DNA of 64,000 bases, from contig NZ_JADNQW010000005.1 of assembly GCF_015709455.1 (NCBI RefSeq), forward strand, positions 682,001-746,000, given 5' to 3'. The stretch is from Methylosinus sp. H3A. GTDB lineage: Bacteria; Pseudomonadota; Alphaproteobacteria; Rhizobiales; Beijerinckiaceae. Shown piece after piece: positions 8,267 through 34,620 of the stretch. The translations under genes were made by a program, and so were the position numbers. Every line of letters begins with the position of its first letter. The stretch's first letter is position 1. The notes beneath the pieces were generated by a model that saw nothing but the letters and a program-made list of their open reading frames with translations, had not been told where the DNA came from and ran no database searches.

Positions 8267-8340
8267 TGGGGGATAGTTCAACGGTAGAACAGCGGACTCT
8301 GACTCCGTTAATCTTGGTTCGAATCCAGGTCCCCCAGCCA
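8267..8340 (+). tRNA. tRNA-Gln (anticodon CTG)
   Basis: The 74-nt cloverleaf has an acceptor stem TGGGGGA/TCCCCCA, an anticodon stem GCGGA/TCCGT with loop CTCTGAC (anticodon CTG), a T-arm with GGTTCGAATCC, a discriminator G and an encoded CCA end. It stands alone with no neighbouring tRNA. Confidence 0.97.
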
Positions 8341-21572: not shown

Positions 21573-22206
21573 GCGTTTTTCTCCCCGCGGGCCGTCCGGC
21601 GCTCGCCCGGCCAGCCTCGTTGGAGCCATGGCCTAGCGCGATGCGCGGAAAAAGAAAACCGCCTCGCTGCGACGGATTTGTCCCTTGACGAATCCGAGAA
21701 TCGAGATCAACATTTCATCATCGCGTCACAGAAGCCGAGGGCCGCGGCGAAAACCCAGCCCGAAGGCGGACAGATCGAGCGGGACCTCGAAGGATGAGAG
21801 CGCGATAGGCGGGCCGGCGTGGCAACGCACGCAGGCCTAAGTCGAGCGATACATGCGAGAGGAGCATGACGCCACCGGGTCACACCCTCTGACCTCAGCC
21901 GAGGTCGATGGCGCGGCGGAGAAATCGAGCGCTGATTTCCTCGAGCGCCGACATTCGTGACATCCCGACGGGCGGCAGAACGCGAAGGCCAAGCGCGACG
22001 CCTCCCGTAACTCCGAATCTGGATCTTTCTGGACATTTCGCATTCTGCGAAAGCCAAGCGGCCCCGCCAGCCTCAGCGCTGCGGGGCCTTCTCTCGTCGG
22101 CTCCGCTACGAGGTCCACGCTCCCTGGCCCAGCGCCGAAATCATTTGAAATTCGTCCGCATATTCGCTAGCGCCTGCCTGCGGCGCAGCGTCGCGGAGGC
22201 GTCGAT
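21573..22206. other. Intergenic region upstream of nasT
   Basis: No gene is supported in these 634 bases. They contain a strong GC hairpin at 22060-22088 and a ribosome binding site GGAGG at 22195-22199 for the TTG start of nasT. No convincing promoter for nasT could be picked out by eye. Confidence 0.5.
22060..22088. repeat. GC-rich hairpin upstream of nasT
   Basis: Arms GGCCCCGC (22060-22067) and GCGGGGCC (22081-22088) enclose 13 bases and are followed by TTCTCT rather than a true T-run. It may be a weak terminator or part of a nasT leader; its loop does not fit the ANTAR target pattern. Confidence 0.4.
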
Positions 22207-22779
22207 TTGAAAATCGTCATCGTCGATGAGAGTCCCGTGCGGGCGGCGATCCTCGAGGACGGATTGCGCGAGGCCGGCTTCACCAATGTCGAGCGCATCG
22301 CGGAAATGCGCAGCCTGCTCGCGCGCATCTATGCGATCGATCCGGATGTCATCCTCATCGATCTCGAAAATCCGAGCCGCGACATATTGGAGCAGATGTT
22401 CCAAGTGAGCCGCGCCGTGCGCCGGCCCGTGGCCATGTTCGTCGATCAGAGCGACAGCGCCTCCATACAAGCGTCGGTCGACGCCGGCGTCTCGGCCTAT
22501 ATCGTCGATGGGCTGAAGAAAGAGCGCATCAAATCCATCCTCGATCTCTGCATATCGCGCTTCAACGCCTTCTCGCATCTGCAGGACGAATTGGCGCGCG
22601 CCAAATCTGAGATCGAGGAGCGCAAGACGATCGACCGCGCCAAGGGCCTGTTGATGAAGGCGAAAAATCTCAGTGAAGAGGACGCCTATCGGCTGATGCG
22701 CAGCACGGCCATGCGCGAGAAGAAGAAGATTTTCGAGATCGCCCAGGCGATCATCACCGCCTCGGAGTTGTTCAAATGA
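22207..22779 (+). CDS. nasT: ANTAR-domain antitermination regulator NasT
   Basis: A 190-residue regulator with an N-terminal receiver-like domain (MKIVIVDESPVRAAILEDGL, VILIDLENPS with the phospho-acceptor-equivalent Asp) and a C-terminal RNA-binding ANTAR domain (about 130-185: IEERKTIDRAKGLLMKAKNLSEEDAYRLMRSTAM). In Paracoccus, Azotobacter and Bradyrhizobium, NasT binds leader RNA of the nitrate assimilation operon and prevents termination, while NasS holds it inactive without nitrate. The gene starts at TTG 22207, supported by GGAGG seven bases upstream, and overlaps nasS by four bases (ATGA). Its likely RNA target is the hairpin pair at 24125-24156. Confidence 0.93.
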   Translation: MKIVIVDESPVRAAILEDGLREAGFTNVERIAEMRSLLARIYAIDPDVILIDLENPSRDILEQMFQVSRAVRRPVAMFVDQSDSASIQASVDAGVSAYIVDGLKKERIKSILDLCISRFNAFSHLQDELARAKSEIEERKTIDRAKGLLMKAKNLSEEDAYRLMRSTAMREKKKIFEIAQAIITASELFK

Positions 22780-23948
22780 CCGCGGAGCGCGAAACCTTGC
22801 GCATCGGCTTCATTCCGCTCGCGGACGCCGCGTCGCTCTTCGTCGCCGTCGACAAGGGATTCGCCGCTGAAGAGGGACTCGACGTCGAGCTCGTGCAAGA
22901 GGTCTCCTGGTCCAATGTGCGCGACAAGCTCAATATCGGCATGTTCGACGCCGCGCATCTTCTGGCGCCCATCACCGTCGCCTCGAGCCTCGGCGTCGGC
23001 CATGTGAAGACGCCGATCGTCGCTCCCTATAATCTCGCCATGAATGGCAACGCCATCACCGTATCGCCGTCGCTGCATGCGGCGATGGCGGCGCAGCTCG
23101 ACGGCGACGCGCTCGATCCGCTCGCCACCGCCAGAGCGCTGGCGCGCGTCGTCGCCGATCGCAAGGCCGCGCGAGCCGAGCCCTTGACCTTCGGCATGAC
23201 CTTCCCCTTCTCGGGACATAATTACCAATTGCGCTATTGGATGGCGGCCGGCGGCGTCGATCCGGACGAGGATGTACGGCTCGTCGTGCTGCCGCCGCCC
23301 TATATGGTCGGCAGTCTCGCGCAGGGCCATGTCGACGGCTTCTGCGTCGGCGCGCCATGGAATTCGGTCGCTGTCGATCTCGGCGTCGGACATATTCTGC
23401 ATTTTTCGGTCGAGCTGTTCTCGCGCTGCGCGGAAAAATCGCTGGCCATGCGCGAGCGCTTCGCGCTGGAGCATCCCCAAGTCGTCGCCGCGCTGCTGCG
23501 CGCCCTGCATCGCGCCGCGCGCTTCGTCTCCGAGGCCGATCCGCATGAGGTCGCCGCTCTGCTCGCGCGGCCCGACCGCGTCGGCGTCGATGCGCAAGTG
23601 ATAGTGCGGACGCTGCAGGGCCGTCTCAAAGTGACGCCGGACGGCGCGACGCGCGAGAATGCGCGCTATCTCCTGCTGGGCCAGGAAGGCGCCGAGCGAC
23701 CCGACCCGACGCAGGCCGCATGGCTCTATGCGCAAATGGCGCGCTGGGGACAGGCGCCGGTTTCACCCGCCCTTCTCGACGCGGCAAAAGCCGTGTTCCG
23801 CGCCGATCTCTTCGACGCCGCTCTGCCCTCGGTCGCCGTGCCGACGCCGCCATCCGGCGATGCGATCGGCGCCTTTTCGGGACCGGCCTTCGAGGATCGC
23901 GACATCGCCGCCTATCTGTCGGCTTTCCCCATTCGCCGCGCGCCATAG
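22776..23948 (+). CDS. nasS: Nitrate sensor NasS (NrtA/CmpA-like)
   Basis: A 390-residue protein homologous to the periplasmic nitrate-binding protein NrtA but without any signal peptide (MTAERETLRIGFIPLADAAS), so it is cytoplasmic. The binding fold is seen in VQEVSWSNVRDKLNIGMFDAAHLLAP, FGMTFPFSGHNYQLRYW and VDGFCVGAPWNSV. It is translationally coupled to nasT (4-bp overlap). In known systems NasS binds NasT and releases it when nitrate or nitrite binds. The similarity to NrtA at 24289 (same order of motifs) shows the two arose by duplication. Confidence 0.92.
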   Translation: MTAERETLRIGFIPLADAASLFVAVDKGFAAEEGLDVELVQEVSWSNVRDKLNIGMFDAAHLLAPITVASSLGVGHVKTPIVAPYNLAMNGNAITVSPSLHAAMAAQLDGDALDPLATARALARVVADRKAARAEPLTFGMTFPFSGHNYQLRYWMAAGGVDPDEDVRLVVLPPPYMVGSLAQGHVDGFCVGAPWNSVAVDLGVGHILHFSVELFSRCAEKSLAMRERFALEHPQVVAALLRALHRAARFVSEADPHEVAALLARPDRVGVDAQVIVRTLQGRLKVTPDGATRENARYLLLGQEGAERPDPTQAAWLYAQMARWGQAPVSPALLDAAKAVFRADLFDAALPSVAVPTPPSGDAIGAFSGPAFEDRDIAAYLSAFPIRRAP

Positions 23949-24070
23949 CCTGTTTTTTATCGGCTCGGCGCCCGCCGATTGTGCAAGGCGCCGGCTCACT
24001 CGTCGGCCTCCGCAGGCGCGCTTCGATCACACTTCGTTGATTTGTAAGCGATCTCGCCGATTTCGCCATT

Positions 24071-24086
24071 TGGCGCGCGACTTGCA
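24071..24086 (+). promoter_or_regulatory. Sigma-54 (-24/-12) promoter of the nrt-nas operon
   Basis: TGGCGCG-CGAC-TTGCA matches the sigma-54 consensus TGGCACG-N4-TTGCA at every fixed position but one, with GG and GC at the required spacing. It predicts a start of transcription near 24097, leaving a leader of about 190 bases before nrtA. This would place the operon under nitrogen control (NtrC-type activator), although no clear NtrC site was found upstream. Confidence 0.8.
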
Positions 24087-24124
24087 ATTATCTTCGCAAC
24101 GATGCGCCCTGCGCATCATTCTCA

Positions 24125-24207
24125 GTCCAACGACGGACGAACCAGCAACGCCGCTGTCCCGGGGAGCTAGCGCTACATGCGCCCTCTTCCAGGCAAGCGG
24201 CTTTTTT
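24125..24207 (+). promoter_or_regulatory. Predicted ANTAR (NasT) antitermination leader RNA
   Basis: Hairpin P1 is GTCC-AACGAC-GGAC (24125-24138) and P2 is CAGC-AACGCC-GCTG (24143-24156), four bases apart. Both six-base loops have A at position 1 and G at position 4, as in known ANTAR targets. The 3' side of P2 lies in GCCGCT (24150-24155), which can instead pair with AGCGGC (24196-24201) just before six Ts (24202-24207). P2 and the terminator are therefore mutually exclusive, and NasT binding would favour read-through into nrtA. The structure was worked out by hand and not folded by program. Confidence 0.72.
24150..24207 (+). terminator. Conditional terminator in the nrtA leader
   Basis: GCCGCT (24150-24155) pairs with AGCGGC (24196-24201). 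Inner partial pairing is possible (GGGGAG with CTCTTCC by G-U pairs; GCGC-TACAT-GCGC at 24169-24181). The T-run is 24202-24207. The 5' strand overlaps the second ANTAR hairpin. Confidence 0.6.
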
Positions 24208-24214
24208 GCGTTTC

Positions 24215-24238
24215 GCGCCGTCGACGAGAAGACGGCGC
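24215..24238. repeat. Hairpin between the leader terminator and nrtA
   Basis: GCGCCGTC (24215-24222) and GACGGCGC (24231-24238) form a perfect 8-bp stem with an 8-base loop. No T-run follows, so it is not a terminator; it may be a stabiliser or part of the leader fold. Confidence 0.4.
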
Positions 24239-24288
24239 CGACTCGCCCTAACCGAAGCGCTCCGAGCGCGAAGAGGACGACGGTGACG

Positions 24289-25614
24289 ATGACAGACGAA
24301 ACAAGCGAAACGAAGCTCCTATCCCCGACGGCATTGGATCGTCGTGCGCTGCTGCGCGGCGCGGCCGGCGCCGCGGCGAGCTTCGCCGCCATACGCACGG
24401 CCTTTCCCGGCGGCGCCTTCGCGGAAGGCTCGGGGCCGGAAACGACAAAAGCGATTCTCGGCTATATCGCGCTCATCGACGCCGCGCCGCTCATAATCGC
24501 AAAAGAAAAAGGCCTTTTCGCCAAGCATGGCATGCCCGACGTCGAAGTGACGAAACAAGCGTCCTGGGGCGCGACGCGCGACAATCTCGTGCTCGGCGGC
24601 GCCGCCAATGGCATAGACGGCGCGCATATTCTCACGCCCATGCCCTATCTCATCTCGACGGGAAAAGTGACGCAGAACAATGCGCCGACGCCGATGTACA
24701 TACTCGCGCGCCTCAATCTCGACGCGCAGGGAATTTCCGTCGCCAATGAATATAAGGATCTGAAGATCACCACCAACGCTTCCGCGCTGCGCGAGGCCTT
24801 CGCCAAGAAGAAAGCCGAAGGCAAAGAGGTGAAGGTCGCCATGACCTTCCCCGGCGGCACGCATGATCTGTGGCTGCGCTATTGGCTCGCCGCCGCCGGC
24901 GTCGATCCCGACAAGGATGTCTCGACGATCGTCGTGCCGCCGCCGCAGATGGTCGCGAATATGAAGGTCGGCAATATGGACGCCTTTTGCGTCGGCGAAC
25001 CCTGGAACGAGCAGCTCGCCAATCAGGGCATAGGCTACACCGCCTGCGCGACCGGCGAGATCTGGGCGAAGCATCCGGAGAAAGCGCTCGGCATGCGCGC
25101 CGATTGGGTGGACAAGAATCCGCGCGCCGCACGCGCGCTCACCGCCGCTGTGCTGGAAGCGCAGCAATGGTGCGACAAAATGGAGAACAAGGCGGAGCTC
25201 GCCGACATCGTCGGCAAGCGCCAATGGTTCAACGTGCCCGTCGCCGACATCCTCGGCCGCCTGAAAGGCGACCTCAATTACGGCAATGGCCGCATAGAGA
25301 AGGGCACGAAGCAATTTATGAAATTCTGGCGCGACTTTGCCTCCTATCCCTTCAAAAGCCATGACGCCTGGTTCGTGACCGAGGACATTCGCTGGGGCAA
25401 GCTCGAGTCGACGACGAATATCAAGGCGCTCGTCGACAAGGTGAATCGAGAAGACATTTGGCGCGAGGCGGCGAAGTCGATCAACGTCGCCGCGAAAGAG
25501 ATTCCTGCGTCGACGTCGCGCGGCAAGGAGACCTTCTTCGACGGCAAGGTTTTCGATCCGGAAAATCCGCAAGCCTATCTGAAAAGCCTGTCCATCAAGC
25601 GCGCGCAGGTGTGA
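24289..25614 (+). CDS. nrtA: Nitrate ABC transporter, periplasmic binding protein
   Basis: A 441-residue substrate-binding protein. The N-terminus has a twin-arginine signal (DRRALLRGAAGAAASFAA), so it is exported folded through Tat. The mature part has the NrtA/CmpA pattern: GYIALIDAAPLIIAKEKGLF, VTKQASWGATRDNLVLGGAANGIDGAH, VAMTFPGGTHDLWLRYWLAAAG and MDAFCVGEPWNEQ. It delivers nitrate (or nitrite) to the permease at 25629. ATG 24289 was chosen; GTG 24283 in frame has better spacing from AGGA at 24274 and could be the real start. First gene after the sigma-54 promoter and NasT leader. Confidence 0.92.
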   Translation: MTDETSETKLLSPTALDRRALLRGAAGAAASFAAIRTAFPGGAFAEGSGPETTKAILGYIALIDAAPLIIAKEKGLFAKHGMPDVEVTKQASWGATRDNLVLGGAANGIDGAHILTPMPYLISTGKVTQNNAPTPMYILARLNLDAQGISVANEYKDLKITTNASALREAFAKKKAEGKEVKVAMTFPGGTHDLWLRYWLAAAGVDPDKDVSTIVVPPPQMVANMKVGNMDAFCVGEPWNEQLANQGIGYTACATGEIWAKHPEKALGMRADWVDKNPRAARALTAAVLEAQQWCDKMENKAELADIVGKRQWFNVPVADILGRLKGDLNYGNGRIEKGTKQFMKFWRDFASYPFKSHDAWFVTEDIRWGKLESTTNIKALVDKVNREDIWREAAKSINVAAKEIPASTSRGKETFFDGKVFDPENPQAYLKSLSIKRAQV

Positions 25615-25628
25615 CCGAAGAGGCCGAA

Positions 25629-26525
25629 ATGACGATGCACATCACCAAGAATGATCTCGTCGACGTAACGCCCGGCGACGATCGTTCGATCGACGAGCTC
25701 TATGCGCGCCGACGCATTCCGCTCATCGAGAAACATCGCGCGCATATCCACGCCTTCTTCGCTGCGGTTCTGCCGCCGTTGATCGTGCTCGCGATCCTGC
25801 TCGGCCTATGGCAGCTCATCTGCATCAAGCCGACATCTGCATTGCCGTCGCCCTCGCGCATATGGAGCGAGGCGAATGATCTCATCCTGCATCCCTTCTT
25901 CGTCGCGGGGCCACAGGACATCGGCCTCGGCTGGCGTGTTCTCACCTCTCTGCAACGCGTCGGCATCGGCTTCGGACTCGCCAGCGTCGCTGGCGTGCTG
26001 CTCGGCGTCATCGTCGGACAGTCGCGTTGGGCGATGCGCGGCCTCGATCCGCTGTTCCAGATTCTACGCACCGTGCCGCCGCTCGCCTGGCTGCCGATCT
26101 CGCTCGCCGCATTTCGAGACAGCTATCCATCCGCGATCTTCGTGATCTTCATCACCTCCATCTGGCCGATCATCATCAACACTGCTGTCGGCGTGCGCAA
26201 TATTCCGCAGGACTATCGCAATGTCGCCGCCGTGCTGCGGCTCAATCAATTCGAGTTCTTCTGGAAGATCATGATTCCTTCGGCCGCGCCCTACATCTTC
26301 ACGGGCCTGCGCATCGGCGTCGGCCTGTCCTGGCTCGCCATTGTCGCAGCGGAAATGCTGACCGGCGGCGTCGGCGTCGGCTTCTTCATCTGGGACGCCT
26401 GGAACTCCTCGCGTCTGCCCGACATATTCGTCGCGCTCGCCTATATCGGCGTGACCGGCTTCGTGCTCGACCGCATCGTCGCAGCGATCGGCGCCATCGC
26501 CACGCGCGGCGCGCAGGCTTCCTGA
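25629..26525 (+). CDS. nrtB: Nitrate ABC transporter permease
   Basis: A 298-residue inner-membrane permease of the binding-protein-dependent family. Membrane segments include VLPPLIVLAILLGLWQLI, FGLASVAGVLLGVIVG and AIFVIFITSIWPIIINTAVG, and the ABC-contact loop is in NVAAVLRLNQFEFFWKIMIPSAAPYIFTG (the EAA-like region). It forms a channel with the ATPase at 26539. AAGAGG precedes ATG 25629. It follows nrtA by 14 bases in the same operon. Confidence 0.93.
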   Translation: MTMHITKNDLVDVTPGDDRSIDELYARRRIPLIEKHRAHIHAFFAAVLPPLIVLAILLGLWQLICIKPTSALPSPSRIWSEANDLILHPFFVAGPQDIGLGWRVLTSLQRVGIGFGLASVAGVLLGVIVGQSRWAMRGLDPLFQILRTVPPLAWLPISLAAFRDSYPSAIFVIFITSIWPIIINTAVGVRNIPQDYRNVAAVLRLNQFEFFWKIMIPSAAPYIFTGLRIGVGLSWLAIVAAEMLTGGVGVGFFIWDAWNSSRLPDIFVALAYIGVTGFVLDRIVAAIGAIATRGAQAS

Positions 26526-26538
26526 GAAAGGAATTTCG

Positions 26539-27330
26539 ATGAGCTATCTTCGCATCGATCACGTCGACAAAGTTTTCACGACCGGCGCCCGCGCGACAAA
26601 AGTGCTCGAGGCTGTCGATCTCTCGGTCGAGAAGGGACAATATGTCTCGATCATCGGCCATTCCGGCTGCGGCAAATCCACTCTGCTCAATATCGTCGCC
26701 GGCCTCGTGACCGCCACCGCCGGCGGCGTCGTGCTGGAAAATCGTCAGGTCGACACGCCTGGGCCGGATCGCGCCGTCGTGTTCCAGAATCATTCGCTGC
26801 TGCCCTGGCTCTCCGTCTATGACAATGTGCGCCTCGGCGTCGACAAGATCTTTGCGGGCAAAAAGAACCGCGCCGAGCGACATGATTGGACGATGCACAA
26901 TCTCGAGCTCGTGCAGATGACGCATGCGAAGGACAAGCGTCCGAGCGAGATTTCCGGCGGCATGAAGCAGCGCGTCGGCATCGCCCGCGCGCTCGCCATG
27001 GAGCCGAAGGTGCTTTTGCTCGACGAGCCCTTCGGCGCGCTCGATGCGCTGACGCGCGCGCATCTACAAGATCGAGTGATGGCGCTGCATCGCACGCTCG
27101 GCAATACGGTGATGATGATCACCCATGACGTCGACGAGGCCGTGCTGCTGTCGGACCGCATCGTGATGATGACGAACGGCCCTTGCGCCACGATCGGCGA
27201 GACGCTCGACGTCGCGCTGTCGCGCCCGCGCAACCGGCTAGAGCTCGCCGCCGATCCCGTCTATCTCGAATGCCGACGCCGCGTGCTGCAATTCCTCTAT
27301 GAGCGTCATCATTATGTCGAAGCGGCGTGA
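26539..27330 (+). CDS. nrtC: Nitrate ABC transporter ATP-binding protein
   Basis: A 263-residue ABC ATPase of the nitrate/sulfonate/taurine group. Walker A GHSGCGKST lies at residues 40-48, the signature SGGMKQR follows at about 140, and Walker B is VLLLDEPFGALDALTR with the switch His in MMITHDVDEAV. It powers NrtAB uptake. Unlike the cyanobacterial NrtC it has no fused binding-protein domain, so it corresponds to NrtD in domain content. AAAGGAA precedes ATG 26539. Confidence 0.93.
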   Translation: MSYLRIDHVDKVFTTGARATKVLEAVDLSVEKGQYVSIIGHSGCGKSTLLNIVAGLVTATAGGVVLENRQVDTPGPDRAVVFQNHSLLPWLSVYDNVRLGVDKIFAGKKNRAERHDWTMHNLELVQMTHAKDKRPSEISGGMKQRVGIARALAMEPKVLLLDEPFGALDALTRAHLQDRVMALHRTLGNTVMMITHDVDEAVLLSDRIVMMTNGPCATIGETLDVALSRPRNRLELAADPVYLECRRRVLQFLYERHHYVEAA

Positions 27331-27342
27331 GGCGAGCGGACG

Positions 27343-28557
27343 ATGAGCGAGCCTCTGGTCATCATCGGCAATGGCATGGCGGCCGCGCGCCTCGTCGACG
27401 AATTGTCGAAACGCGCGCTCGGCCGATACGCCATCGCCGTCATCGGCGCGGAGCCGCGCCTCGCCTATAATCGCGTGCTGCTCTCTTCAGTGCTGGCCGG
27501 CGAAACGGAGATGGCGGAAATCGAGTTGAAGCCCACGAGCTGGTGGCGCGACCACGGCGTCACACTGCTCTATGGCCGCAAGGCCCGCGCTATCGACCTT
27601 TCGACAAAGCGCGTGTCGCTCGAAAGCGGTGAGAACATCGGCTTTTCGAAGCTCGTTTTCGCCACCGGCTCGCGCGCGCTGCGTCTCACCCTGCCCGGCG
27701 CGCAGCTCCCCGGCGTTTGCGTGTTTCGTGACGGCGCCGATGTCGACGCGCTGAAGCGCATGGCCGCGCAGCGCAAGCGGATCGTCGTCATCGGCGGCGG
27801 CCTGCTCGGTCTCGAAGCCGCCTATGGCCTCACAAAGTCCGGCGCCGTGGTGACGCTCGCGCATGTCGCGGAGCGGCTGATGGAGCGACAGCTCGACGCG
27901 CCTGCGGCCGAGTTGTTGAAGCAGTCGATCGAGAGCAAAGGCATAAAGACGCTGCTGGAAGCGAATACGATCCGCATAATCGGCGACGATCATGTTCGTG
28001 GCGTCGAATTCGCCGACGGCCGCCGGCTCGAGGCGGAGGGCGTCGTCTTCGCGGCGGGGATTGCGCCCAATATGGAGCTCGCGCGAAGCGCCGGCGTCGA
28101 GACGCAAAGAGGCGTCATCATCAACGATCATATGGAGACGAATATAGACAGCGTATTCGCGCTCGGCGAATGCGCGCAGCACAGAGGCGTCTGCTACGGC
28201 CTCGTCGAGCCCGCCTATGAGCAGGCCCGCATCCTCGCCGCGCGGCTCTGCGGCGAAAATGACATCTATGAGGGAAGCATCGTCGCCACCAATCTGAAAG
28301 TCTCCGGCGTCAGTGTCTTTTCCGCCGGCGATTTTCTCGGACGCGACGGCGGCGAAACTGTCTCCTGGCGGGACATCGGCCTCGGTCTCTACAAGAAGCT
28401 CGTCATCGACGATGGCCGCCTCGTCGGCGCCGTGCTCGTCGGCGACGCCAGCGCAGCGCTTTCGTGCCTCGAGCTCATTCGCTCGCAGGCCGACATAGCG
28501 CAATGGCGCGACGCTTTGATCTTCGGCCGCGCGCTCTGCGACAGAAAGGCGGCGTGA
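27343..28557 (+). CDS. NAD(P)H/FAD-dependent oxidoreductase of nitrate assimilation
   Basis: A 404-residue pyridine nucleotide-disulfide-type oxidoreductase. The FAD motif is VIIGNGMAAARLVDEL (residues 6-21), the NAD(P)H motif is RIVVIGGGLLGLEAAYG, and the second FAD motif is DSVFALGECAQHRG. It resembles the N-terminal third of NADH-nitrite reductase (NirB/NasB) but lacks the BFD-like and sirohaem parts. Lying between nrtC and nirA (12 and 2 bp spacings), it is a likely electron donor to nitrate or nitrite reductase, inferred from position. The C-terminus ends KAA just before nirA. Confidence 0.82.
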   Translation: MSEPLVIIGNGMAAARLVDELSKRALGRYAIAVIGAEPRLAYNRVLLSSVLAGETEMAEIELKPTSWWRDHGVTLLYGRKARAIDLSTKRVSLESGENIGFSKLVFATGSRALRLTLPGAQLPGVCVFRDGADVDALKRMAAQRKRIVVIGGGLLGLEAAYGLTKSGAVVTLAHVAERLMERQLDAPAAELLKQSIESKGIKTLLEANTIRIIGDDHVRGVEFADGRRLEAEGVVFAAGIAPNMELARSAGVETQRGVIINDHMETNIDSVFALGECAQHRGVCYGLVEPAYEQARILAARLCGENDIYEGSIVATNLKVSGVSVFSAGDFLGRDGGETVSWRDIGLGLYKKLVIDDGRLVGAVLVGDASAALSCLELIRSQADIAQWRDALIFGRALCDRKAA

Positions 28558-28559
28558 GC

Positions 28560-30314
28560 ATGGCCGGCGACTTCACAGCGGAACAAAAGCGCTATCTCGA
28601 AGGCTTCGCCTCCGGCTTTCAGGCCTCGCGCGCGACGCGCGGCCCGGCGCCGACGAAAGACACGCCTATCGGCCCGGACGCTATCCATTTGGAGGCGCAG
28701 GATCGCGCTGTCGCGCGCGGCGGCAAGCTCAACGATCAAGAAAAAATCAAACGCGAAGAGCATCCTTTCGACGCCTATGCGCGTCTCGCCACTCGAGCGA
28801 AGCGCAACGAGCCGCCGAAGGTCGCCGATAATTTCCGATGGCGCTATCATGGGCTGTTCTACGTCGCGCCGACGCAGAGCTCCTACATGTGTCGCTTGCG
28901 GATTCCCAATGGCTGCCTCACTCATTGGCAGTTCACCGGCCTCGCCGATCTCGCCGATCGTCATGGCGGCGGCTATTTGCATGTCACCACGCGCGCGAAC
29001 CTCCAGATTCGCGAGATCGAGCCGAAGAACGCCGTCGCCATGATCGAGGGCGTGCAGAGTCTCGGCCTGTGGACGCGCGGCGCCGGCGCCGACAATATTC
29101 GCAATATCACCGGAACTCCGACCGCCGGAATCGATCGCCAAGAGCTCATCGACACGCGTCCCCTGGCGCGCGCGCTGCATTTCCACATTCTCAACGATCG
29201 CTCTCTCTTCGGCCTGCCGCGGAAATTCAACATCGCTTTCGACGGCGCCGGCTGCATCGCCGTGCTCGAGGACACCAATGACGTCGCCTTTCGAGCGGTC
29301 GAGATCGTCGACGGACATGGCCTCGAGCCGGGAATCTATTTCCGTCTCGCGCTCGGCGGAATTACGGGGCACAAAGATCTCGCGCGCGAGACCGGCGTCA
29401 TCGCGCGGCCGGACGAAGCCATCGAAATTGCAGACGCCATAGTGCGCGTCTTCATCGCGACCGGCGACCGCGTCAATCGCGCCGAGGCGCGATTGAAATA
29501 TGTGCTCGATCGCTTGGGCTTCGAAAAATTCCTGACGCTCGTCGAAGAGCGGCTCGGCCGCGCCCTTCTGCGCGCGCCCGCGGCGGCGATCGCGCCGCGG
29601 CCCGGCTTCGACCGGCACGCCCATATCGGCGTGCATGCGCAAAAGCAGGTGGAAAAGAACTGGCTCGGCGTCGCGCTGAAGCTCGGCCGGCTGACCAGCG
29701 ACAATGTCCGCGGCCTGGCGAACATCGCGCGCGCCTTTGGCGACGGCGACATAAGGCTCACCGTCTGGCAAAATCTGCTGATCTCCGGCGTTCCCGACTC
29801 CCGCGTGGACGAGGCGGTCGCGCAGATCGAAGCGCTCGGCCTTTCGACAAAGGCCTCGCCGATCCGCGCCGGCCTCGTCGCTTGCACCGGCAATGTGGGC
29901 TGCCGCTTCGCCGCCGCCGACACGAAGCGGCACGCCGACGAAATCGCCGCTCATTGCGAGAAGCAAATCGCGATCGACACACCGATCAACTTACATCTGA
30001 CCGGCTGCCGTCACTCCTGCGCGCAGCACTATATCGGCGACATCGGCCTCATCGGCGCGCGCGTCGCGATCAATGACGAAGGCGACACAGTCGAAGGCTA
30101 TCACATGGTCGTCGGCGGCGGTTTCGGCGCCGAAGGCGCGATCGCCCGCGAATTATTCGAGAATGTCGCAGCGGAAGACGCGCCGCGCAAGGTCGAGGGC
30201 ATTTTGCGCGCCTATCTCGCGCATCGCGCGACGGCTGAGGAGAGCTTCGCCGCCTTCACGCGGCGCCACGATTTAGAGACGTTGAAACGACTCTTCGCGG
30301 AGACCGAAAAATGA
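28560..30314 (+). CDS. nirA: Assimilatory nitrite reductase (ferredoxin-type, sirohaem)
   Basis: A 584-residue enzyme that reduces nitrite to ammonia with six electrons. Two sulfite/nitrite reductase repeats are present. The [4Fe-4S]-sirohaem cysteines are Cys442 and Cys448 (CTGNVGC) and Cys483 and Cys487 (TGCRHSCAQH). Sirohaem-binding Arg/Lys residues lie in YLHVTTRANLQIREI and NIRNITGTPTAG. ATG 28560 follows the preceding stop by two bases; longer in-frame starts would overlap that gene. Its electron source may be ferredoxin or the flavin reductase encoded immediately downstream, with which it overlaps by four bases. Confidence 0.92.
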   Translation: MAGDFTAEQKRYLEGFASGFQASRATRGPAPTKDTPIGPDAIHLEAQDRAVARGGKLNDQEKIKREEHPFDAYARLATRAKRNEPPKVADNFRWRYHGLFYVAPTQSSYMCRLRIPNGCLTHWQFTGLADLADRHGGGYLHVTTRANLQIREIEPKNAVAMIEGVQSLGLWTRGAGADNIRNITGTPTAGIDRQELIDTRPLARALHFHILNDRSLFGLPRKFNIAFDGAGCIAVLEDTNDVAFRAVEIVDGHGLEPGIYFRLALGGITGHKDLARETGVIARPDEAIEIADAIVRVFIATGDRVNRAEARLKYVLDRLGFEKFLTLVEERLGRALLRAPAAAIAPRPGFDRHAHIGVHAQKQVEKNWLGVALKLGRLTSDNVRGLANIARAFGDGDIRLTVWQNLLISGVPDSRVDEAVAQIEALGLSTKASPIRAGLVACTGNVGCRFAAADTKRHADEIAAHCEKQIAIDTPINLHLTGCRHSCAQHYIGDIGLIGARVAINDEGDTVEGYHMVVGGGFGAEGAIARELFENVAAEDAPRKVEGILRAYLAHRATAEESFAAFTRRHDLETLKRLFAETEK

Positions 30315-31936
30315 ACGAGATCACGCGGCCGCAACGGCTCGAGCTCATTCCGCCTTCCGCGCCTTTCTCCGATGAGCAGCGCGTCTGGCTCAACGGATTC
30401 TTCGCCGAGTTGATATCGATGAACGACGCGGGCGTCGTCACTTTGTCGCCGGCGGAGAATACGGCGATCGCGGGCAATGGCGACGACGGCGCCGCGCCTT
30501 GGCATGATCAGACGATGCGATTGCAGGAGCGCATGACGCTCGCGCAAGGGCATCCGCTGCGACGACGCATAATGGCCGCCATGGCGCAGCAAGACTGCGG
30601 CCAATGCGGCTATGACTGCCACAATTATGCGGAAGCGCTGTTCGCCCACAAGGAGCAGCGGCTCAATCTCTGCGCGCCGGGCGGCAAGGAAACCGCGCGC
30701 ATGTTGAGGACGCTCGCCGAAGAGCTCTATTCCGCGCCGTCCGCCGAGGATGCGAGCCTGAAGGCTCGCGGTCCAGAGCCGGGACTGGGCAGCGAGCCTT
30801 CAGACTCGCATCCGACGTCCGCGCCCGGCCATTCGCGCGACAATCCCGTCGACGCTCACTTCTTGTCGCGGCGGCGACTGAACAAGCCTGCGTCTGAAAA
30901 AGAAACATGGCATGTCGAATTCGATCTTTCCGTCAGCGGTCTCGATTACGCTGTCGGCGATTCGCTCGGCGTGTTCGCGCAGAATGATCTCGGCCTCGTC
31001 GATCAGATCATCGCCATGATCGGCGCCTCGCCGCTCGCGCCGGTAAACGGCAAAAGCCTGCGTGACGCGCTGCGCGACGATTGCTCGCTCGCGCCGGCGC
31101 CGGATCGTCTCTTCGAGCTCGTCTCCTTCCTCACCGGAGGCGAGACGCGCGCCAAAGCGCGCGCGCTGGCGCAGGGCGAAGATCCGGACAAGGACGCAGC
31201 CGATCTCGATGTGTTGGCGGCGCTGATGAAATTTCCGGGCGTGCGGCCACATGCGGAAGCCTTTGTCGAATCGCTCGAGCCTTTGCAGCCGCGCCTCTAT
31301 TCCATCTCCTCCTCGCCGAAGACGGCGCCGGGACGCGTGTCGCTCACCGTCGATGCGGTACGCTATACGATCGGCAAGCGCAAACGCAAAGGCGTGGCCT
31401 CGACCTTCCTCGCCGAACGCATCGACAGCGGCGCGCCGGCGCGAGTTTATGTTCAGCCATCGCACGGCTTCTCGCTGCCGAATGATCCCGACACGCCGAT
31501 CGTCATGATCGGCCCCGGCACGGGCGTCGCGCCATTCCACGCCTTTTTGCAGGAACGCGCGGCGATCGGCGCGCGCGGCGCCAATTGGCTGTTCTTCGGC
31601 CATCAGCGCAGCGATTGCGATTTCTTCTATGCGGAGGAGCTCAATGCGATGAAATCTTGTGGCCTGCTCACACGCCTGTCGCTCGCCTGGTCGCGCGACG
31701 GCGCCGAGAAATTCTATGTGCAGGATCGCATGCGCGAAGTCGGCCGCGATCTCTTCGCCTGGATCGCCGAGGGCGCGCATATCTATGTCTGCGGCGACGC
31801 CAAGCGCATGGCCAAGGATGTCGAACGCGCGCTCGTCGACATTGTCGCGCAATATGGCGCACGCTCGACCGACGAGGCCGTCGCTTTCGTCGCGGAATTG
31901 AAGAAGAACGGCCGCTATCGACAGGATGTCTATTGA
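30311..31936 (+). CDS. Fused Fe-S / flavin NADPH reductase (CysJ-like) with in-frame palindromic repeat
   Basis: A 541-residue protein with an unusual make-up. Residues 96-121 form a Fe-S motif of the type in RnfB and CO dehydrogenase gamma (DCGQCGYDCHNYAEAL...LCAPGG; Cys96, 99, 103, 121). Residues about 180-541 are the FAD/NADPH part of sulfite reductase CysJ: RLYSISSSPK for FAD, MIGPGTGVAPFHAFLQER and VCGDAKRMAKDVE for NADPH, ending GRYRQDVY. The FMN flavodoxin domain of CysJ is absent. Residues 146-168 between the two parts are encoded by a copy of repeat family B. It overlaps nirA by four bases and nasA by one, and is probably the NADPH-linked donor for nitrate or nitrite reductase. Confidence 0.85.
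   Translation: MNEITRPQRLELIPPSAPFSDEQRVWLNGFFAELISMNDAGVVTLSPAENTAIAGNGDDGAAPWHDQTMRLQERMTLAQGHPLRRRIMAAMAQQDCGQCGYDCHNYAEALFAHKEQRLNLCAPGGKETARMLRTLAEELYSAPSAEDASLKARGPEPGLGSEPSDSHPTSAPGHSRDNPVDAHFLSRRRLNKPASEKETWHVEFDLSVSGLDYAVGDSLGVFAQNDLGLVDQIIAMIGASPLAPVNGKSLRDALRDDCSLAPAPDRLFELVSFLTGGETRAKARALAQGEDPDKDAADLDVLAALMKFPGVRPHAEAFVESLEPLQPRLYSISSSPKTAPGRVSLTVDAVRYTIGKRKRKGVASTFLAERIDSGAPARVYVQPSHGFSLPNDPDTPIVMIGPGTGVAPFHAFLQERAAIGARGANWLFFGHQRSDCDFFYAEELNAMKSCGLLTRLSLAWSRDGAEKFYVQDRMREVGRDLFAWIAEGAHIYVCGDAKRMAKDVERALVDIVAQYGARSTDEAVAFVAELKKNGRYRQDVY
30748..30813 (+). repeat. Dispersed palindromic repeat, family B, in-frame copy inside a gene
   Basis: The left arm GGATGCGAGCCTGAAGGCTC... (30748-30769) pairs with 30792-30813 with one mismatch over 22 bp. 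The element is 66 bp, exactly 22 codons, so it keeps the reading frame. It matches the intergenic copy at 21186 in its core (ATGCGAGCCTGA, GGCTCGCGGTCC). Confidence 0.85.
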
Positions 31937-34620
31937 TGCAGAGAGTCGATCCGAGCAGCGTTTCCGTCGCGACCGCCTGTCCTTATTGCGGCGTCGGCTG
32001 CGGCGTGCTGGCGACGCCGGACGGGCGCGGCGGCGCGACGGTCGCCGGCGACCCGGAGCATCCCGCGAATTTCGGACGGCTGTGCTCCAAAGGTTCGGCC
32101 TTGCAGGAGACGCTATCGCTCGAAGGGCGATTGCTGCATCCGATGATCCGCTCCGGCGCGGAGCTACGTCGCGCGAGCTGGGACGAAGCGCTCGACCATG
32201 TCGCGCGAGGCTTTCAGCGCGTGATCGACGCGCATGGGCCACAGGCGATCGCCTTCTATCTCTCCGGCCAATTGTTGACCGAGGATTATTACGCGGCCAA
32301 CAAGCTCATCAAGGGCTTCATCGGCTCGCCCAATGTCGACACCAATTCGCGGCTCTGCATGGCTTCGACGGTCGCCGGACACAAGCGCGCCTTCGGCGCC
32401 GATGTCGTGCCGGGATGCTATGAGGATCTCGACTGCGCCGATCTCATCGTGCTGGTCGGCTCCAACGCGGCCTGGTGTCATCCGATTTTGTTCCAGCGCA
32501 TATTGCGCAACAAGCAGGAGCGCGGCGCGAAGCTCGTCGTCATCGATCCGCGTCGCACGGCGACGGCGGAAGAGGCCGATCTGTTTCTGCCTATCGCGCC
32601 CGGCGGCGATGTCGCGCTGTTTTGCGGCCTGCTCGCGCATCTCGTCGCCAACGGCGCGACTTGCGACGATTACATAGCGCGTCACACAGTGGGCTTCACG
32701 GAAGCGCTCGCGGCCGCGCGCGAGATCGCGCCGACAATCGCGGCGACAGCCGCGGCCGCCGGCCTTCGCGAAGTGGACGTCGCGTCCTTCTTCGAGCTTT
32801 TCGCCGCGACGCCGAAGGTCGTCACCGCCTTTTCGCAAGGCGTCAATCAATCCGCGCAGGGAACGGACAAAGTCGACGCCATCATTCATTGTCATCTCGC
32901 GACCGGGCGCATCGGCAAGCCGGGCGCCGCGCCCTTCTCGCTCACCGGGCAGCCCAACGCCATGGGCGGGCGCGAGGTCGGCGGCCTCGCCAATCAGCTC
33001 GCCGCGCATATGGGGTTTTCCGACGCCGAGATCGATCGCGTGCGGCGCTTTTGGAACGCGCCGCGCATTGCGACGCGCGAAGGTTTCAAGGCCGTGCAGA
33101 TGTTCGAGGCCATAGCGCGCGGAAAGATCAAGGCGCTATGGGTGATGGGAACAAATCCCGCGGTCTCGCTTCCGCAGGCGGACGAAGCGCGCGCCGCGCT
33201 CGCAAAGCTCGATCTCTTCGTCGTCTCGGACAATGTGCTGTCGAACGACACGATCGGCGCCGGCGCGCATGTGCTGCTGCCGGCGCAGGCCTGGGGCGAG
33301 AAATCGGGAACAGTCACCAATTCGGAGCGGCGCATCTCACGCCAGCGCGCCTTTCTGCCTTCGCCCGGCGAGGCCGAGCCGGACTGGCGCATCGTCAGCG
33401 CGCTCGCGGAGCGCATGGGCTTCGGCGAGGCTTTCGGCTTTCGCTCGGCGGCGGATGTGTTTCGCGAGCATGCGGCGCTCTCAGCTTTCGAGAATGACGG
33501 CGCACGCAGCTTCGACATAGGCGGACTCGCGGAACTCTCCGACGAGGCCTTCGATGCGCTGCCCCCGACGCTGTGGCCGATCCGCGCCGGCGAGACGAAA
33601 GGACGCGAGCGATTTTTCGCAGCGGGCGGTTACTTCACCGCCGACGGCAAGGCGCGCTTCGTCGCGCCGGAGCGTCCCGCGCTGAAAACCTCGACCTCGG
33701 CGGCCTTTCCCTTTCGGCTCAACACCGGGCGCATCCGCGACCAGTGGCACACGATGACGCGCACGGGAAAGAGTCCGCGCCTCGCGCGACATTTGCCCTT
33801 TCCCTTCGTCGAGATTCATCCGGCGGACGCCGCGCCGCTCGGCCTCGTCGACGGCGGCTTCGCGCGCGTCTCCACGCGTCACGGCGAATGTATGCTCGCG
33901 GTCGCCGTCACCGATCGGCAGCGGCGCGGGCAGTTGTTCGCGCCGATTCATTGGAGCGACGAGACATCGTCCTTCGCGCGCGTCGGCGCGCTCGTCGCGG
34001 CGATCACCGATCCGCATTCGGGACAGCCGGAGGCGAAGGCGACGCCGGCGCGCATAGACGCGGTCGCGTTCAAATCGCGCGGCTTCCTGCTCTCGCGCGC
34101 ACCGCTTCGGCCGGCTTTCGCAGAGCTCGGAACCAAGGTCGCCGTCGCCGACGGCCATGGCCTTTTGTTCGCCTCGGACACCGGGCTCGGCGTGTGGCGC
34201 GATTATGTCGCGTCGCTCGGCGACGGGGCGAATGCGGCCGATTATCTCGACGAAGCGCGCGGCGTCTATCGCGCGGCGCGCTTTCGCGAGCAGCGCGTCG
34301 ATCTGTGCCTCTTCGTCGGGAGGCAGGACGCGCGGGCCGCCTTCGACGTGGCGAGCGCGCTGTTCGAGAAAGAACGGCTCACCATCGAGCAACGCAAAGC
34401 GCTGCTCTCGGGACGCGCGGCCGATGGGGCGCAGGAGGAGGGCGCGACCGTCTGCGCTTGCTTCGGGGTCGGCGCAAAGACGATCGACAGAGCGATCGCG
34501 CAAGGCGCCCGCAGCGTCGCCGAGATCGGCGCGAAACTGCGCGCCGGCACGAATTGCGGCTCCTGCATTCCAGAATTGAAACGCGCCATCGCGGCGGCGC
34601 GCGCATGCTGCGAGGAGTAG
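31936..34620 (+). CDS. nasA: Assimilatory nitrate reductase, catalytic subunit
   Basis: An 894-residue molybdenum bis-MGD enzyme that reduces nitrate to nitrite in the cytoplasm. The N-terminal [4Fe-4S] ligands are Cys15, 18, 22 and 50 (CPYCGVGC...RLCSKG). The molybdenum ligand is the Cys in NSRLCMAST. Molybdopterin motifs such as VMGTNPAVSLPQAD and the dinucleotide-binding domain (RLNTGRIRDQWHTMTRTG) follow. The last 60 residues are a BFD-like [2Fe-2S] domain (VCACFGVGAKTI...NCGSCIPELKRAI), as in NasA forms receiving electrons from a NAD(P)H reductase. Its start codon overlaps the preceding stop (TGATG). It is the last gene of the operon; no narK-type transporter follows. Confidence 0.95.
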   Translation: MQRVDPSSVSVATACPYCGVGCGVLATPDGRGGATVAGDPEHPANFGRLCSKGSALQETLSLEGRLLHPMIRSGAELRRASWDEALDHVARGFQRVIDAHGPQAIAFYLSGQLLTEDYYAANKLIKGFIGSPNVDTNSRLCMASTVAGHKRAFGADVVPGCYEDLDCADLIVLVGSNAAWCHPILFQRILRNKQERGAKLVVIDPRRTATAEEADLFLPIAPGGDVALFCGLLAHLVANGATCDDYIARHTVGFTEALAAAREIAPTIAATAAAAGLREVDVASFFELFAATPKVVTAFSQGVNQSAQGTDKVDAIIHCHLATGRIGKPGAAPFSLTGQPNAMGGREVGGLANQLAAHMGFSDAEIDRVRRFWNAPRIATREGFKAVQMFEAIARGKIKALWVMGTNPAVSLPQADEARAALAKLDLFVVSDNVLSNDTIGAGAHVLLPAQAWGEKSGTVTNSERRISRQRAFLPSPGEAEPDWRIVSALAERMGFGEAFGFRSAADVFREHAALSAFENDGARSFDIGGLAELSDEAFDALPPTLWPIRAGETKGRERFFAAGGYFTADGKARFVAPERPALKTSTSAAFPFRLNTGRIRDQWHTMTRTGKSPRLARHLPFPFVEIHPADAAPLGLVDGGFARVSTRHGECMLAVAVTDRQRRGQLFAPIHWSDETSSFARVGALVAAITDPHSGQPEAKATPARIDAVAFKSRGFLLSRAPLRPAFAELGTKVAVADGHGLLFASDTGLGVWRDYVASLGDGANAADYLDEARGVYRAARFREQRVDLCLFVGRQDARAAFDVASALFEKERLTIEQRKALLSGRAADGAQEEGATVCACFGVGAKTIDRAIAQGARSVAEIGAKLRAGTNCGSCIPELKRAIAAARACCEE

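Follow-up and report, generated by a model that had tools for sequence, protein, structure and literature searches.

Both the growth of methanotrophs on nitrate and their use in biotechnology depend on nrt/nir/nas genes, and a locus of Methylosinus sp. H3A raises the question of how nitrate controls the transcription of such genes. The locus lies in a stretch of 64,000 nucleotides (contig NZ_JADNQW010000005.1, positions 682,001 to 746,000; hereafter the window), in which the genes for a regulator and its sensor precede nitrate transport and reduction genes that would be transcribed as a single operon:

22207..22779, plus strand: nasT, a receiver and ANTAR RNA-binding domain protein, read here from a TTG start (PF00072 and PF03861 above cut-off)
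22776..23948, plus strand: nasS, an NrtA-like nitrate/nitrite sensor (NMT1_2; PF13379, E 8e-72)
24289..25614, plus strand: nrtA, a nitrate-binding protein with a Tat-like signal, predicted to be the first controlled gene (PF13379, E 1.6e-106)
25629..26525, plus strand: nrtB, a nitrate ABC permease (TIGR01183 over cut-off)
26539..27330, plus strand: nrtC/D, a nitrate ABC ATPase (TIGR01184 over cut-off)
27343..28557, plus strand: a NirB-like FAD oxidoreductase (below the NirB cut-off)
28464..30314, plus strand: a NirA-type nitrite reductase, open reading frame as listed, start uncertain (NF007126 over cut-off)
30311..31936, plus strand: a CysJ-like flavoprotein reductase (NF004859 over cut-off)
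31933..34620, plus strand: an assimilatory nitrate reductase-like molybdoprotein (matches to NasC and Fdh-alpha models, each below cut-off)

The start of nrtA is conserved in four of five aligned relatives. According to the accessible part of a transcriptome study of M. trichosporium OB3b, nrtA, nasA and nasB/D are highly expressed on nitrate (PMC3615186).

An earlier note on this DNA had placed the genes for NasT, an ANTAR protein, and NasS directly upstream of the nrtA leader, a claim with which both the domain matches and the RNA-contact residues of NasT agree. The nasS gene overlaps nasT by 4 bases. NasS, an NrtA-like ligand-binding protein, matches the NrtC regulatory domain and NrtA (2g29) in the PDB, and a signal peptide, looked for in its sequence alone, was not seen. 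NasT combines a receiver with a C-terminal ANTAR domain, and no other PF03861 match turned up in the genome, in a search in which the control genomes gave no match. In EutV, the hexaloop is contacted by R142, K143, K147, K149, E160, Y164, R168, M172, N173, R175 and R177, as stated in the available portion of the structural report (PMC8934654). The NasT counterparts are, in the same order, R139, K140, R144, K146, E157, Y161, R165, M169, R170, K172 and K174; seven of these 11 residues are identical to those of EutV (6wsh), with R or K at the remaining four. The receiver of NasT keeps Asp52 and carries Asp101 where EutV has a lysine. Lysine at this position is typical of receivers, and the aspartate would fit a NasT that is controlled by NasS rather than by phosphorylation. 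In Paracoccus, NasS is reported to free NasT on nitrate or nitrite (PMC3795266, available in part).

The region between nasS and nrtA contains a promoter-like sequence and a series of hairpins:

24071..24086, plus strand: predicted sigma-54 promoter TGGCGCG-CGAC-TTGCA (from the sequence; pattern in 33 of 37 leaders)
24101..24117, plus strand: 5' leader hairpin GATGCGC-CCT-GCGCATC (z -4.48 for 24097-24124; similar in five aligned relatives)
24125..24138, plus strand: P1, first NasT-type hairpin, hexaloop AACGAC (sequence, script scan and fold)
24143..24156, plus strand: P2, second NasT-type hairpin and putative antiterminator, hexaloop AACGCC (sequence, script scan and fold)
24150..24207, plus strand: intrinsic terminator, exclusive with P2 (fold; overlap kept in 30 of 31 leaders)
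24215..24238, plus strand: 8-bp hairpin GCGCCGTC-GACGAGAA-GACGGCGC (from the sequence; conserved in five aligned relatives)

P1 is made up of GTCC (24125-24128), the loop AACGAC (24129-24134) and GGAC (24135-24138), and P2 of CAGC (24143-24146), the loop AACGCC (24147-24152) and GCTG (24153-24156), with the linker GAAC (24139-24142) between them. Direct reading and the script confirm to the base the earlier description of two 4-bp hairpins, four bases apart, with A1/G4 hexaloops, i.e., the tandem stem-loops of at least three pairs each and the loop positions that characterize ANTAR targets. The terminator consists of a 5' strand (24150-24158), a 3' strand (24192-24201) and the run TTTTTT (24202-24207). 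It shares with P2 the segment GCCGCT (24150-24155), which comprises positions 4-6 of the P2 loop and the first three bases of the P2 3' strand, and whose pairing partner AGCGGC (24196-24201) immediately precedes the six T; the mutual exclusion of P2 and terminator proposed on these grounds is borne out by the sequence and by the fold switch described below. The linker, 4 nt in the window and 3 nt in the Methylosinus relatives L003-L006, lies within the range of 2-25 nt accepted for ANTAR targets of Actinobacteria (PMC8164766) and just below the 5-12 nt of the Enterococcus faecalis eut leaders, in which a 3-nt linker impaired induction (PMC3369931, PMC8934654; all three sources available in part). 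The two outer hairpins sit between the predicted transcription start and P1 (24101-24117) and between the terminator and the ribosome-binding site (24215-24238).

When 24097-24160 is folded alone, P1 and P2 form; in 24097-24209, P1 stays and the terminator replaces P2 (z -3.47, 0 of 200 shuffles as stable), and the terminator piece by itself reaches z -2.96, again with 0 of 200 shuffles as stable. P1 and P2 first, and then the terminator with P1 kept, is the order of events expected during transcription. The fold of 24097-24288, which the earlier note had proposed as a check (z -2.74, 1 of 200 shuffles), gave a divided answer: the terminator forms and the centroid keeps P1, but the minimum-energy fold loses P1, whose region is there paired with a stretch 3' of the terminator. 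The short piece with P1 and P2 is energetically unremarkable (z -1.67, 13 of 200 shuffles as good); hence, the energy of these mini-hairpins is no evidence, and the evidence lies in their sequence, arrangement and conservation. By themselves, tandem A1/G4 hairpins are frequent (2.1 per shuffled window, compared with 2 in the real window, both strands), and the overlap with the terminator is therefore the informative part. The composite motif of two A1/G4 hexaloop hairpins with 4-bp stems, at most 12 nt apart, with an overlapping six-pair terminator and five or more T, is found a single time in the window and never in 200 dinucleotide shuffles (both strands).

A simple promoter and terminator scan, limited to sigma-70 hexamers and loops of 3-8, found no promoter and missed the terminator of the nrtA leader. 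At the gathering threshold, Rfam gave a single match in the window, a tRNA gene at 8267-8337 (RF00005, 66.1 bits), and none at the leader, where two matches at E 1.3 and 6.3, found when E values up to 10 were allowed, were taken as chance. Since no Rfam family matched at the leader, we built a model of our own, R1, from 14 leaders, including that of the window, which had been chosen for having the motif and whose scores, among them the 48.1 bits at 24123-24157 of the window, are high by construction. The leaders of the outer-membrane gene, the Methylocystis matches and the named loci discussed below are all outside this training set.

nasS was sought in 120 related genomes and gave a match of some kind in 72; the nearest named nasS loci are those of Methylosinus sp. 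Ce-a6 and M. sporium DSM 17706. At the expected place, R1 scores above 38 bits in 18 of 29 nasS loci from other genomes (13 of these 18 are training sequences) and 17.6-24.8 bits in another four, and seven (L008-L011, L018, L020, L021) are without a convincing R1 match. Within the genus Methylosinus, seven of ten genomes have the nrtA form of the element (46-49 bits); in G003 and G009 the element occurs in the second form alone (see below), and in G006, which likewise is without the nrtA form, the best R1 match has an E value of 0.28. Among 80 named nasS loci, mostly from Bradyrhizobium, an R1 match at E 0.2 or better lies behind nasS in 16. Across the genus and the order, many leaders linked to nasTS have conserved the predicted element; the switch is not universal next to nasS, nor in the genus.

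A comparison with relatives, called for by the earlier note, showed hairpins and terminator to be conserved, with covariation in the stems and shuffle controls that are mixed. In 14 leaders, 98.2% of the cells are paired and three of the eight pairs carry changes on both sides; the corresponding values for 32 leaders (27 distinct rows) are 97.7% and two of eight. The covariation score lies above all 500 shuffles in both sets, as many pairs altered on both sides as in the real leaders arose in 15 of 500 (14 leaders) and 67 of 500 shuffles (32 leaders), and the number of further pair types was reached by all 500 in both sets; as the leader sequences are related, these counts are not probabilities.

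The overlap between P2 and the terminator, counted as six or more contiguous pairs of P2 with the strand beside the T-run, is present in 30 of 31 leaders, a set (with L001 and L002 representing the window itself) that left out the nasS loci without a recognisable element (L008-L011, L018, L020, L021, L031), compared with 71 of 6200 shuffles of the downstream stretch and none of 27 weak R1 matches. The latter, 13 from the own genome and 14 from congeners, also have no promoter pattern, and the third and further R1 matches in the own genome (E 0.27 and up) were taken as chance. In a set of 37 leaders (the 31, L031 and the five named loci L035, L047, L052, L108 and L109), all six pairs of the basal terminator helix are found in 33, five in L160, L035 and L109, and four in L108. 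In the four leaders with G-C in place of A-T as the third P2 pair, the terminator strand has G throughout; in the 30 leaders with A-T, it has A in 14, G in 13 (as a G-U pair) and a mismatch in three. One base therefore mostly satisfies both helices. Position 1 of the P2 loop is G rather than A in L013, L022 and L030, and P1 is non-canonical by eye in L017, L019 and L031.

With a probability of roughly 93%, we read the nrtA leader, with its tandem hairpins, their conservation and covariation, the exclusive folds and the single ANTAR protein found in the genome, as a transcription antitermination switch controlled by NasT. Transcription would begin near 24097 from the sigma-54-type promoter. Without nitrate, NasS would hold NasT, the terminator would capture P2 through the pairing of GCCGCT with AGCGGC followed by U6, and transcription would stop at about 24207. 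On nitrate or nitrite, NasS would release NasT, which, recruited via P1, would stabilise P2 and thereby block the terminator, so that polymerase could continue into nrtABC and the genes of the nitrite and nitrate reductases. We infer this course of events from the work on Paracoccus, Bradyrhizobium and Enterococcus; the interpretation in the earlier note that the NasT/ANTAR mechanism works here is supported in this sense, its observation being right and its mechanism very probably right. For methanotrophs, this amounts to a model of nitrate control that is specified to the base and can be tested.

NasT-type ANTAR antitermination with release by NasS is, as a kind of system, already known from Paracoccus and Bradyrhizobium. 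The nasTS-nasABGHC locus of Paracoccus denitrificans, as described in the accessible parts of two reports (PMC3795266, PMC5424462), resembles the Methylosinus locus in having nasT-nasS directly upstream, hairpins in a gap of about 200 bp, an ANTAR NasT (which there binds the leader), a NasS sensor and an assimilatory operon. Its first gene, however, is nasA, whereas nrtABC comes first in Methylosinus, and its hairpins, HI and HII, are named in these parts without a description of two hexaloops, whereas P1, P2 and terminator are explicit here. The E. faecalis eut leaders share the tandem A1/G4 hexaloops and a P2 that overlaps an intrinsic terminator, but EutV is phosphorylated by EutW (PMC3369931, PMC8934654; available in part), whereas the Methylosinus NasT would be released by NasS. 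In Bradyrhizobium diazoefficiens, an alphaproteobacterial NasT acts by antitermination on more than one target operon, as in the regulon proposed below; the targets named in the accessible text are nos, nap and others (PMC6759348), in contrast to the nrt/nir/nas operon and the predicted outer-membrane channel of Methylosinus. Among the titles and beginnings of abstracts of open-licence papers listed in a literature search, there was no NasT leader switch in methanotrophs, with the proviso that the genome-wide hits in Table S2 of Ramesh 2012 may include the nrtA element.

How NasT handles its two hairpins is a matter on which the revised EutV model bears: a NasT dimer would take one hexaloop at a time, P1 and then P2, with no bridging. 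We give this an even chance, as the EutV-RNA structure has one hexaloop per dimer (PMC8934654, available in part) and linkers of 3-4 nt would suit a hand-over from P1 to P2; it would refine the explanation by NasT antitermination and not stand as an alternative to it.

A true alternative, which we consider unlikely, would have nrtA controlled mainly at its promoter by sigma-54 together with NtrC or another activator, with a leaky terminator and a minor role for NasT. The segment 24071-24086 fits the sigma-54 promoter consensus, and 33 of 37 leaders are preceded, at a distance of up to 140 nt, by the pattern TGG[CT]-N8-TG[CA], which occurs in 2.9% of random 140-nt stretches of the window. Its conservation speaks for promoter control, as does the ammonium control of the Paracoccus system, which runs through NtrBC acting on nasT expression (PMC5424462, available in part); the exclusive pairing of P2 and terminator, kept through sequence changes, argues against a minor role for NasT. 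The two layers are compatible, and most likely both act. If antitermination by NasT is thus combined with a sigma-54-type promoter, expression would need nitrogen limitation as well as nitrate, a double gate in which the promoter answers to the former and the terminator to the latter. The earlier note had pointed out that a transcription start downstream of 24156 would count against the switch; the predicted promoter, with a predicted start near 24097, lies upstream of P1. A palindrome like TTTGTGC-NN(N)-GCACAAA recurs, by eye, well upstream of the sigma-54-type promoter in L035, L036, L063, L109 and others, and is perhaps the site of the activator; the window has only a weak half-site of this type near 23980.

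Very improbable, and here rejected, is the notion of attenuation at the terminator, either ribosome-coupled (leader-peptide) or by a small molecule, with a merely incidental likeness to NasT hairpins: a 24-codon reading frame does begin at ATG 24177 inside the terminator, but arginine is the only regulatory amino acid with a run in its peptide MRPLPGKRLFCVSRRRREDGADSP, the ATG is missing in L012, where hairpins and terminator are kept, and the conservation of hexaloop positions and P2 stems spans the order, with nasT next door.

What is new here is the regulon, to which another, independently conserved copy of the switch would add an unstudied outer-membrane protein. This second complete NasT-type switch of the genome (L113:1501-1537, minus strand; G000:C5:2543188-2543224) has a sigma-54-type promoter and a seven-T terminator, precedes an outer-membrane barrel gene (L113:266-1396, minus strand), and is present in nine of the nine close orthologues found. 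The homologues P0011, P0013, P0022 and P0037 are called alpha-amylase by NCBI, a label that, judging by the predicted fold, is probably a misannotation; alpha-amylase activity of the second target was rejected, the fold predicted being that of an outer-membrane channel.

The barrel protein has no Pfam match, nor have 44 members of its family, and neither an NCBIfam model nor, by sequence profile, a PDB chain matched it. Its predicted fold is a COG4313-like outer-membrane barrel (12 strands in 4rl8). The fold agrees with that of the COG4313 channel Pput2725 (PDB 4rl8), but identity is 13% and there is no Pfam match; membership in COG4313/Phenol_MetA_deg was not assigned, as the fold agrees and the sequence models do not. 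A search of the genome with PF13557 gave 0 matches, and the controls gave none either. In the accessible text of its structural report, Pput2725, the best structural relative of the barrel protein, is thought to carry hydrophobic molecules and judged unlikely to pass hydrophilic ones, and COG4313 channels are implicated in taking up hydrophobic compounds (PMC4493636); this counts against reading the barrel as a nitrate channel; nitrate as its substrate is a guess.

The association extends beyond Methylosinus. Among 39 Methylocystis genomes, 31 have a full NasT match and 33 an R1 match at E 0.05 or better; a count covering 47 of the 55 R1 matches shows that 26 of the 31 genomes with full NasT have a match on the nasT strand, 1.3-2.3 kb upstream of that gene. 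When 30 of the 55 matches, one per genome, were inspected, 22 preceded a barrel-gene homologue (51-73% identity, orthology not implied), with the start of nasT visible right behind it in nine; three lay before nrtA, two between nasS and nirA, and in three the contig ends 110-224 bases behind the match. The link between NasT element and barrel gene therefore belongs to two methanotroph genera and not to one genome.

The predicted NasT regulon consists of the nrt/nir/nas operon and an outer-membrane channel. We suggest, tentatively and as the less probable case, that NasT of Methylosinus and Methylocystis runs a small nitrate regulon in which a dedicated outer-membrane channel serves as an entry route for nitrate or as an accessory of growth on nitrate. 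If so, the barrel would supply the membrane step that the usual drawings of NasST-type assimilation systems lack. The switch also serves as a genome-wide marker, and as such it directs attention to an outer-membrane family, labelled 'alpha-amylase' in databases, as a likely contributor to nitrate nutrition. No NasT-controlled outer-membrane protein was found in the titles and abstract beginnings of the open-licence papers searched, and the words amylase, porin and outer membrane do not occur in the available main text of the OB3b transcriptome paper (PMC3615186).

Other nasS loci carry variant elements. Among 78 Bradyrhizobium-type loci (L034-L111; the 80 named loci without the two from Methylosinus, L032 and L033), 37 have, at most 560 bases downstream of nasS, a P2-like hairpin AGC-A.CGA[AG]-GCT that is complementary, in its loop and 3' strand, to GGAGCTTCG, the likely ribosome-binding site just before the next ATG. 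None of the 37 has a run of four T behind the hairpin, the minimum-energy fold pairs the GGAGCTTCG site in 28, and P1 at the Bradyrhizobium-type loci is non-canonical by eye. NasT may free the ribosome-binding site at these loci and so act as a translational on-switch; the ANTAR regulation described for Actinobacteria in the accessible part of PMC8164766 is repression, opposite in sign. No report of a translational NasT on-switch was found among the matches listed in a literature search.

In L010 and L011 (G009 and G003), where no nrtA lies behind nasS, the gap between nasS and the next gene contains, by eye, the hairpins GCGGTC-AACGAC-GACCGC and GAGCCC-A.AGCC-GGGCTC, with A1/G4 loops, 14 nt apart and with a small hairpin between them. 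A competing helix GGCTCTGTCACAG:CTGTGACGGAGCC is seen there by eye, with no T-run behind it, and R1 scores 14.2 bits in L010. In the window, a perfect inverted repeat, GGCCCCGC..GCGGGGCC, lies upstream of nasT at 22060-22088 and is followed by TTCTCTC; it is possibly a terminator or a leader element of nasT.
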